From NCBI GenBank assembly GCA_022562855.1, contig JADFON010000152.1:1-5590 (forward strand): a stretch of DNA of 5,590 bases, in the 5' to 3' direction. Below are positions 2,716 to 5,590 of the stretch, in pieces (positions within the stretch are counted from its first letter, which is position 1; every line of letters begins with the position of its first letter). The stretch is from Candidatus Zhuqueibacterota bacterium (GTDB lineage Bacteria; SM23-31). A program made the translations under genes and the position numbers. Below the pieces are notes generated by a model. It had not been told where the DNA came from and did no database searches. It was given only the letters and a program-made list of their open reading frames with translations.

Positions 2716-3456
2716 CTAATACTCAACATGCTCCAAAAACAGTCCGTTCGCAGGTGCGTGCGTACTTACCAATTTACGTTCCGAACCGCTTAATATACTA
2801 TCGATGCAATCCGGCTTTTTTGCTCCTCTGCCCACATCGACGACCGTTCCGGTAATTGCCCGAACCATCCCATGAAGAAATCTATTGGCTCTTAATCCGA
2901 TGATAATAGAGTCTCCGATTTTTTCTAATCCTGCCTCGTGAACAATACAAACGTAACCGTCGTCATTAGTAATTTCCGAATTTAGTTTCGCAAGGGGTTT
3001 GAAATCATGCTCCCCGACAACTTTATCGAGAGCGGCTTTCATATGTCCCGTATTCAATCTTGTCAGGATTTCCCAGGAAAACCGGCGCTGCAGTGCAGAA
3101 GGTGTAAGGCTTATCCTGTATCGGTAACTCCTGCTAACGGCTGAAAATCGTGCATGGAAATCGTCAGAAACAGGATCAAGCGAACAGATCGAAATATCGT
3201 CAGGCAGCATGGAATTCATGCTCTTGAGAAAAGTTTCTTCATCTGTATCCCGGTCCACATCGAAGTACGCTGTTTGACCTCTTGCGTGTACTCCCCGGTC
3301 AGTGCGTCCCGCACCGACTATTGCAACATGCTTTTCGAATCTCTTTGAAAGTATCTCTTCAAGGACACCCTGGACTGTTCTGTGATTTTTTTGTATCTGC
3401 CATCCGAAAAATTCAGTACCGTCGTATTCAAGAACGACTTTAAATCTTTTTGTCAC
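2716..3456 (-). CDS. truA: tRNA pseudouridine(38-40) synthase
   Basis: TruA converts uridines 38, 39 and 40 in the anticodon arm of many tRNAs to pseudouridine; it is a cytosolic homodimer. The protein is 246 residues, within the normal 245-270 range. Family features in order are the opening strand VVLEYDGTEFFGWQ (7-20), TVQGVLEEIL (27-36), the catalytic loop GRTDRGVHA with nucleophile D53 (50-58), FHARFSAVSRSYRYRI (100-115) carrying the conserved tyrosines, GEHDF (148-152), NRFLHGMVR (191-199), and the C-terminal APANGLFL (234-241). The start is GTG at 3456, which overlaps the ecfT stop as GTGA. No ATG lies near and the GTG gives the family N-terminus. The preceding bases carry only a weak GGGA, so translational coupling to ecfT is likely. 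Catalytic residues appear intact. Confidence 0.97.
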   Translation of the reverse strand: MTKRFKVVLEYDGTEFFGWQIQKNHRTVQGVLEEILSKRFEKHVAIVGAGRTDRGVHARGQTAYFDVDRDTDEETFLKSMNSMLPDDISICSLDPVSDDFHARFSAVSRSYRYRISLTPSALQRRFSWEILTRLNTGHMKAALDKVVGEHDFKPLAKLNSEITNDDGYVCIVHEAGLEKIGDSIIIGLRANRFLHGMVRAITGTVVDVGRGAKKPDCIDSILSGSERKLVSTHAPANGLFLEHVEY

Positions 3457-4244
3457 AACAGATAGGTCCCGGAAGCGATACTTATAACGGTAACTGCTGC
3501 AATGATATCGGAAGTCTTAAATTTCAGATCGTTATAATATGTTCGTGAGCCGCTGCCAGGATATCCGCGTGCTTCGAGAGCAAATGCAAGGGCGTCGGCG
3601 CGGTTAAATACTGATATAAACATCGGTATAACGAGCGACGCTAAATTTCTTATTCTTGAGACAATTTTACCCTCGAAATGTACACCCCTTGCTGCCTGTG
3701 CCTTTCTGATTCTATCACTTTCTTCAAAGAGAACCGGTATGAACCTCAAAGTAATTCCAAGCATTAGTGCGAACCTGTCAGGCTTCAGACCGGTTTTTCT
3801 GAGCGGTCTGAGCAATTTTTCCAACCCGTCTGTCATATCGGTCGGTGGAGTCGTCAGCATTACTAAAATCGAAAACGAAATCAATAGCAGCAGACGCAAC
3901 CCGAAAAAAAGACCTTTGCTCACTCCCTCTTCGGTCACGCTAAAACCAACTATCGGGATTTGGAAAATTGGATTTCCCTCGCCAAAAAACGAGTGGAGAA
4001 AAAAAGTAAATATTATTATCCAGAAAAAAATTCTTAATTGGCGGAAAAAATGTGCAAACGGTATTTTAGATAACCGTATGACTACCATAAGAAAAACTAA
4101 AAAACTTAAATGCGTCAAGAAATTCTGACCTAATGTAACTGCAATTACGATTGGAATCAGGGTCAGGAATTTTGTCCGTGGGTCTAACCTGTGAATTAGA
4201 GATTTTCGTGGACAGTATTGCCCTAACGTGAGATTTTGCAACAA
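3453..4244 (-). CDS. ecfT: ECF transporter transmembrane subunit EcfT (CbiQ family)
   Basis: EcfT is the membrane scaffold of energy-coupling factor importers, joining two ABC ATPases to a substrate-binding S protein that takes up vitamins or metal ions. The 263-residue product opens LLQNLTLGQYCPRKS then HRLDPRTKFL, the standard family start. Hydrophobic segments lie near residues 26-56, 71-85, 111-131 and 202-216, with a last one at about 245-262. Both Ala-Arg-Gly coupling motifs that contact the ATPases are present: AQAARGVHF (ARG at 185-187) and LEARGYPG (ARG at 225-227). I chose TTG at 4244 because AGAGG lies 7 bases upstream and the length fits. The frame is open up to a TTG at 4388, but those 48 extra residues are unlike the family and that TTG has no ribosome site. 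No ATPase or S-component gene is in the window, so the substrate is unknown. The stop overlaps the truA start by 4 bases. Confidence 0.93.
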   Translation of the reverse strand: MLQNLTLGQYCPRKSLIHRLDPRTKFLTLIPIVIAVTLGQNFLTHLSFLVFLMVVIRLSKIPFAHFFRQLRIFFWIIIFTFFLHSFFGEGNPIFQIPIVGFSVTEEGVSKGLFFGLRLLLLISFSILVMLTTPPTDMTDGLEKLLRPLRKTGLKPDRFALMLGITLRFIPVLFEESDRIRKAQAARGVHFEGKIVSRIRNLASLVIPMFISVFNRADALAFALEARGYPGSGSRTYYNDLKFKTSDIIAAVTVISIASGTYLL

Positions 4245-4256
4245 GATAACGCCTCT
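4237..4256 (-). promoter_or_regulatory. ecfT: Ribosome binding site that fixes the TTG start of ecfT
   Basis: On the minus strand the sequence reads AAGAGGCGTTATC followed by TTG TTG. The AGAGG core sits 7 bases before the first TTG (4244), an ideal spacing. The neighbouring in-frame codons GTT and ATC are not usual starts. This supports the shorter reading of the gene. Confidence 0.75.
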
Positions 4257-4313
4257 TGATTTTAACTTACTAATGTAGTAAATAATTGCCCAAAATAAAA
4301 GTCTTTTTCCGGC

Positions 4314-4440
4314 AGATTTTCGATCTATTGACGTCTCAAAAGCGCATTTATTTGAACCTAAAGAGAGTAAATCAGAAACAAGCGGCAAAAATAAAAATTC
4401 GTGACCTTACCGAGATTTTTCCGTATATTGACGTCAAAAG
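4314..4440. repeat. Two-copy imperfect direct repeat with TTGACGTC core
   Basis: Copy 1 lies at 4314-4342 and copy 2 at 4413-4440. Both begin AGATTTT, contain ATTGACGTC, and end AAAAG; the middle parts differ by substitutions and small gaps. The TTGACG starts are at 4328 and 4428, exactly 100 bp apart. In copy 2 the core extends to a perfect 10-base palindrome TTGACGTCAA (4428-4437), which also forms the -35 of the downstream promoter. It could be a pair of operator sites or a decayed promoter duplication; chance cannot be excluded for so short a core. Confidence 0.45.
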
Positions 4441-4467: not shown

Positions 4468-5046
4468 ATGGAATATAATTTACCGCCATACGGGAACGAT
4501 CTGCCGAGTTATCAAAAAGAGCTTCCGAAAACCGACCCCGAAAAGACAGGGGCAGGACTTCCGCCAACTAAACCGGTAATAAATTTAGTACTATTTATTC
4601 TGACTGTATTAACGACCCTGTTCGCCGGTTCTTATCTGAACCAGGGAGACCCGCTCAGCAGGATAGAGGACCTCTATCTTGGAATTCCGTTTTCATTTAC
4701 ACTGCTTGCAATTATCGGATGTCATGAATTCGGCCATTATTTCATGTGCAGAAAACACAATGTTGACGCTACCTTACCATACTTTCTTCCTGCGCCTCCC
4801 CCGTTTTTGATCGGCACGTTCGGGGCTGTAATAAAGATCCGCACCCCGATAAAGAATAACCGCGCGCTGTTTGATATAGGCGCTGCCGGTCCTATCGCGG
4901 GAATAATTGTCGCAATTCCGGCAATAATTATCGGTTTGGAAAGATCGGAAATTCTCGAAGTCCAGCCAATGATTGGGGGTAGTCTCGGTGAACCGATTCT
5001 TTTTAAGATTATTTCAATTTCATTTTCATTTAAATTAAAAACATAA
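4468..5046 (+). CDS. Site-2 protease (M50, EGY-like), C-terminally truncated
   Basis: Intramembrane zinc metalloprotease of the M50/site-2 protease family, which cleaves membrane-embedded substrates. A proline-rich cytosolic-looking N-terminus (1-35) is followed by membrane segments at about 37-54, 73-92 (holding the zinc motif HEFGH, residues 86-90, catalytic E87) and 133-157. Conserved family stretches are CRKHNVDATLPYFLPAPPP (94-112), GTFGAVIKIRTPI (116-128) and ALFDIGAAGPIAG (133-145). This pattern matches the bacterial homologues of plant EGY proteases. The match ends near LGEPILFKII (173-182), after which only SISFSFKLKT precedes the stop. Family members run on for roughly another 100 or more residues that include the aspartate ligand for zinc (an LDGGH-like motif), so this product should be inactive. 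An in-frame TAA at 4459 makes ATG 4468 the first possible start. See the junction at about 5000. Confidence 0.85.
   Translation: MEYNLPPYGNDLPSYQKELPKTDPEKTGAGLPPTKPVINLVLFILTVLTTLFAGSYLNQGDPLSRIEDLYLGIPFSFTLLAIIGCHEFGHYFMCRKHNVDATLPYFLPAPPPFLIGTFGAVIKIRTPIKNNRALFDIGAAGPIAGIIVAIPAIIIGLERSEILEVQPMIGGSLGEPILFKIISISFSFKLKT
4987..5020. other. Junction truncating two unrelated genes tail-to-tail
   Basis: The plus-strand M50 homology runs to about 5004-5013, and the minus-strand ATPase-like reading runs to about 4995-5003. The breakpoint must therefore lie in this short interval. No inverted terminal repeat, target duplication or transposase is visible at the point itself. To the right, three hand-counted 60-base rows give about 28-37% GC, lower than most rows to the left, though AT-rich rows also occur there. 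Confidence 0.7.
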
Positions 5047-5252
5047 GTTATTGATGTGTCTTCTGAACTTCCTGTAAGAGGTTTATCGCCATCCTTAAAC
5101 TCGATATCTTCATTCAAAAACATCAATGCATCCAATATTGTTGTTTTTCCGGATTCATTTTTTCCTGCAAATATTGTTAAAACGTCAGAAACATTACATT
5201 TTGTATCTTCAATCGATCTGAAATTTTTTATTCTAAATGATTTGAGTTTCAA
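4995..5252 (-). pseudogene. N-terminal fragment of an OLD/RecF-like AAA ATPase (Walker A module)
   Basis: Taking TTG 5252 as residue 1, the product opens (L/M)KLKSFRIKNFRSIED, the first strand and FRSI motif of SMC/RecF/OLD-type (AAA_15) ATPases. The Walker A loop GKNESGKT follows at 30-37 and then TILDALMFLNED. Such ATPases occur in DNA repair proteins and in OLD-family or Gabija-like defence nucleases; 86 residues cannot decide among them. The frame stays open to 4737, but below about 4995 it is just the antisense of the M50 gene (GSPRLPPIIGW onward), so Walker B, signature and any nuclease domain are lost. The start is uncertain: TTG 5252 fits the family but lacks a ribosome site, while TTG 5312 adds 20 residues and has AAGGA only 3 bases upstream. 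A plausible promoter lies upstream, so the 5' end seems intact. It may be an assembly artefact rather than a real remnant. Confidence 0.7.
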
Positions 5253-5295
5253 GTGTTCATATTTCTTATAGGAAGTTATTAAACATCTGTGTGTG

Positions 5296-5355
5296 GATAC
5301 AGTGTTTCTCAAAAATCCTTCAATTCACCTTGAGAAAATTTCATAATACTGTATC
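5296..5355. repeat. Interrupted inverted repeat over the ATPase promoter and 5' end
   Basis: The outer arms are GATACAGT (5296-5303) and ACTGTATC (5348-5355), perfect over 8 bases. The inner arms are TTTCTCAA (5305-5312) and TTGAGAAA (5330-5337), also perfect over 8. Left arms are separated by 1 base and right arms by 10, so the two pairs are not in one continuous helix. The right outer arm lies in the promoter spacer, upstream of the predicted transcription start, which favours a DNA operator over an RNA hairpin for the outer pair. The inner pair could fold in RNA only if the start is at about 5337 or further upstream. Confidence 0.5.
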
Positions 5356-5370
5356 AAACTAAAACTTCAA
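5343..5370 (-). promoter_or_regulatory. Predicted promoter of the ATPase fragment
   Basis: On the minus strand the -35 is TTGAAG (5365-5370, 4 of 6 to consensus), the spacer is 16 bases, and the -10 is TATTAT (5343-5348, 5 of 6). Initiation would be at about 5336. That leaves about 24 leader bases, including AAGGA, before TTG 5312, or about 84 before TTG 5252. The spacer contains GATACAGT, one arm of the inverted repeat, so a repressor bound there would block polymerase; that is inference. Confidence 0.4.
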
Positions 5371-5529
5371 CACCGCAAATGTGTTTAGAGATATGAACCA
5401 AACAGACAATTCCCCTCGAGGGCTTCTTAAAACTATATTTCAAAAGTGAATTTTTGTATCAATCATACACTAAATATGCAAATAATTGGGAATTAATTTT
5501 CATACTTTTCTGCGTCCACTTTATTCCCC

Positions 5530-5562
5530 AAAAATGGTTCAAGCCTCTAAAGAATTGAACCA
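5530..5562 (-). terminator. Weak terminator-like stem-loop facing leftward
   Basis: TGGTTCAA (5535-5542) and TTGAACCA (5555-5562) form a perfect 8-base stem with a 12-base loop. Read on the minus strand, the stem is followed by ATTTTTGGGG, a run of five T. The stem has only three G-C pairs, so termination would be weak. It would suit the end of a minus-strand gene lying beyond the right edge. Confidence 0.3.
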
Positions 5563-5590
5563 AAGTTTTGAACTAAAACATCATTATCAT

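Follow-up and report, generated by a model that had tools for sequence, protein, structure and literature searches.

A truncated site-2 protease gene and an OLD-type ATPase fragment meet at a probable assembly joint in a draft bacterial genome

Chimeric contigs are a known class of error in metagenome-assembled genomes (the GUNC error class; PMC8201837), and the locus described here has in common with them the joining of pieces of different source inside genes, an abrupt change of GC content and recurrence within one assembly, the misassembly itself being something we infer here and do not observe. Misassemblies are reported to be relatively rare in metagenome-assembled genomes, which counts against reading the present joint as an artefact (PMC8201837). 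The genes concerned belong to two families, of each of which the locus holds a part. Compared with its relatives in the M50 family of site-2 proteases (PF02163), the protease gene shares the N-terminal half, with the HExxH motif, and with a relative from the same family also the gene neighbourhood, whereas the C-terminal half, with the LDG motif, is missing from the contig as assembled. Compared with the OLD-family ATPase-nucleases (AAA_15 plus TOPRIM), the second gene has the N-terminal approximately 80 residues, including Walker A, and lacks both TOPRIM and what remains of the ATPase domain.

The window, meaning the whole stretch of DNA that was analysed (5590 bp), is a complete contig, C158, of a metagenome-assembled draft genome of 491 contigs that is 79.6% complete. 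Its features are the following:

minus strand: purB (partial), an HtrA-type protease gene and a transaldolase-like gene (fsa), named by eye from their translations
2716..4388, minus strand: truA and ecfT, the usual upstream neighbours of the M50 gene, in the order found in the relative L011
4468..5013, plus strand: 5' part of a site-2 protease (M50) gene, from the PF02163 match, 58% identity to the intact gene in L011, and alignment
5007..5021: joint, within which both homologies end, from alignments and codon coordinates
5010..5252, minus strand: OLD-type AAA ATPase gene, 5' part of about 80 codons, from the AAA_15 match and identity to frames in L056, L057, L059 and L060
5014..5590: AT-rich tail of the contig (GC 29.5%), with the ATPase fragment and some 280 bp that appear to be non-coding, and reaching the contig end

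The window copies of truA and ecfT match those of L011, the closest syntenic locus and a relative from the same family, where the order is truA, ecfT, an intact M50 gene (312 aa) and panC. Since truA and ecfT are normal upstream neighbours of the M50 gene, the body of the contig is genuine chromosome.

The M50 open frame (4468-5046, plus strand, 192 aa) carries the zinc-binding HExxH motif as HEFGH at residues 86-90, yet matches Pfam Peptidase_M50 over profile positions 2-100 of 221 only, and the NxxPxxxxDG motif (LDG-type, third zinc ligand) is absent from it. All nine aligned relatives have this second metal motif, as an N(L/I/F)xPxGxxDGG block. None of the relatives found is similar beyond query residue 186, and the similarity ends at 181-185 in the best nine, which extend a further 125-138 residues (roughly 125-140) beyond that limit; residue I182 ends at position 5013, close to where an earlier note made from the sequence had placed the loss of homology. 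Past the joint the frame comprises 10 more codons, with its stop at 5044-5046. That note had also suggested searching the assembly for the missing half-genes, and neither the C-terminal half of the L011 protease nor panC, used as queries, gave a match in the window's own assembly. The window protease and the L011 protein match each other at E=1.9e-57, and so the C-terminal half would probably be detectable if it were present there.

The ATPase open frame runs on the minus strand from 5312 to 4737, with TTG at 5252 as its probable start, and matches AAA_15 over profile positions 2-88 of 374 (E=2.9e-16), with a Walker A motif, GKNESGKT. It is 42-53% identical to the N-termini of four frames of 547-653 aa (L056, L057, L059 and L060). 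Their alignment with the window frame reaches about residue 98-102 (window 5021-5007), and these relatives continue for about 450-550 residues beyond the point that corresponds to the joint, a TOPRIM-like region being found in the full-length proteins only. The proteins of L056 and L059 match the Old profile, and the L059 protein further matches the solved structures of OLD (6p74) and GajA (8jq9), so that, judged by its closest full-length relatives, the window ATPase is an OLD-type protein. Searches with it gave no match in phages, relatives at 36-53% identity in plasmids, one relative among viral contigs and six distant relatives from unrelated phyla among genome contigs; none of these is close enough to name a donor. 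An ATPase C-terminal part on another contig of the assembly, C464, was considered as the other half and set aside, no link to the window ATPase having been shown: its AAA_15 match covers positions 199-374 (268-374 in a shorter frame) and does not overlap that of the window fragment, and its upstream side consists of other gene fragments.

The limit of M50 homology at 5013 and that of ATPase homology at 5007-5021 overlap, which places the joint within about 5007-5021. Thus the coincidence of the two breaks, and the running-on of each frame into the other gene's DNA, were both borne out by alignment with relatives, the ATPase frame continuing for about 90 codons antisense to the M50 gene and without homology. 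The GC content steps abruptly at the joint, from 46% to 28% (45.9% at 4468-5010, 28.4% at 5014-5312 and 30.6% at 5313-5590). In 52 sampled contigs of the same genome, only 0.6% of the 577-bp windows reach the AT content of the tail, and among 215 frames of at least 200 codons none equals the ATPase piece (28.4% GC) in this respect; AT-rich stretches of similar GC do exist inside other contigs of this genome. Third-order Markov scoring gave no useful separation of the tail. Within the assembly the tail was found as its own copy only, and its DNA had no match in plasmids. The joint has no k-mer of 15 or more bases in common with the sampled contigs, and its only matches in the whole assembly carry 3 mismatches in 22. 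The non-coding part of the tail, upstream of the ATPase fragment, includes a perfect inverted repeat, GGTTCAA-N12-TTGAACC (5536-5561), which may be an operator or may be due to chance.

Whether the junction is peculiar to this contig was approached through a scan for terminal GC steps in 103 contigs, the window contig and 102 others. The window contig ranks tenth, with other contigs showing equal or stronger steps, and AT-rich ends fall evenly on the two contig sides (seven at 5' ends, seven at 3' ends). At three of the contig ends read, the gene content is chimeric. On C120 (L073; 4969-6393), a 475-codon open frame fuses a short-chain dehydrogenase (SDR) in frame to DprA, with dehydrogenase residues 13-182 followed by DprA from 176 on, devoid of its first 40 or so residues, while GC rises from 43% to 60% across the fusion. 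On C59 (L140; 1-1700, GC 30%), an archaeal-looking cluster of adenylate kinase (Adk), what we take by eye to be a response regulator, Ndk, and S28e, with, upstream of S28e, the apparent end of a protein that we likewise take to be L7Ae (ending in VTEGDAKKTLKEIVEKLK and a stop), runs into a bacterial AGCS (alanine) symporter without its first 160 residues, the symporter match beginning at profile position 162 of 424. Archaea and eukaryotes have S28e as a ribosomal protein, whereas the adjoining symporter is bacterial, and hence two domains of life are joined on C59. On C464 (L086; 10500-11690), the AT-rich last 1.2 kb holds in succession an M16 peptidase fragment, a membrane-protein fragment and the ATPase C-terminal part mentioned above.

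The repeated occurrence at contig ends of breaks within unrelated genes, in one case across domains of life, indicates misassembly, and since the assembly has several independent joints of this type, a false joint is by far the most economical account of the window, where two genes are cut at one point and the tail forms the last part of the contig. We therefore consider it very probable that the joint is a metagenome-assembly artefact and not a gene disruption, a chimeric contig being one of the origins that the earlier note had proposed and the one that the joints on C120, C59 and C464 strongly favour. Counting against this reading are the failure to find the true continuation of the M50 gene on another contig, so that the break in that gene is judged indirectly, and the want of a k-mer of 15 or more bases shared between the joint and the sampled contigs; the comparable joints decide the matter. 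The assembler would have extended a genuine stretch (purB, htrA, fsa, truA, ecfT, M50) beyond about 5010 by adding some 580 bp of AT-rich DNA that belongs to another molecule, in which the gene at the joint would be the OLD-type ATPase. The join, unless already present in a chimeric read, was probably made on a short AT-rich stretch common to both molecules, which may lie at the joint itself, and the contig would have ended soon afterwards. Presumably the joint existed in none of the DNA molecules sampled, and the real M50 gene is expected to encode an ordinary protease of about 310 aa and to be followed by panC.

The alternative is that a genuine illegitimate recombination, by deletion or insertion, put an AT-rich accessory island inside the M50 gene, leaving both the protease and a defence-type OLD ATPase truncated and inactivated. 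OLD-type ATPases do belong to defence-associated families, genes of defence systems are often mobile and rich in AT, and similarly AT-rich stretches occur inside other contigs of this genome. Against this stand the breakage of both genes at one point, the absence of inverted or flanking repeats at the joint, a tail that stops at the contig end with no other copy in the assembly, and the clear contig-end chimeras beside it, so that we regard recombination as improbable. The more specific proposal that the earlier note made for a real joint, that an accessory segment with an ATPase had entered the protease gene and inactivated it, drew no support: the joint shows neither an element end nor an integrase or transposase, neither target duplication nor terminal repeats of a mobile-element insertion were found there, and a clean insertion is disfavoured because it would not cut the supposedly inserted ATPase at that very position. 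If real, the joint would amount to an ordinary, if double, gene disruption. That both genes end naturally, in a lineage whose M50 protein is short and finishes in SISFSFKLKT and whose ATPase, also short, overlaps it on the opposite strand, is scarcely credible: both frames are open and each has a stop, but every one of the nine aligned relatives, including that of the same family, continues through the catalytic LDG-type block, and beyond the joint the ATPase frame reads the M50 gene in antisense, without homology.

A very probable chimera of this kind carries a warning for the use of the draft genome, namely that gene fragments found at contig ends of this assembly should not be attributed to the organism. 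This applies to the OLD ATPase on C158, to the genes for archaeal ribosomal proteins on C59 and to the fragment of DprA on C120, and chimeras within contigs are invisible to completeness and contamination figures. Four more contig ends are candidates by GC alone, the 5' end of C90 (L113) and the 3' ends of C296 (L081), C56 (L137) and C178 (L165), whose terminal segments of 0.5-1.7 kb have a GC content of 56-61%, compared with 38-42% elsewhere in those contigs, and encode, among others, heme A synthase and the glycyl-tRNA synthetase alpha subunit.
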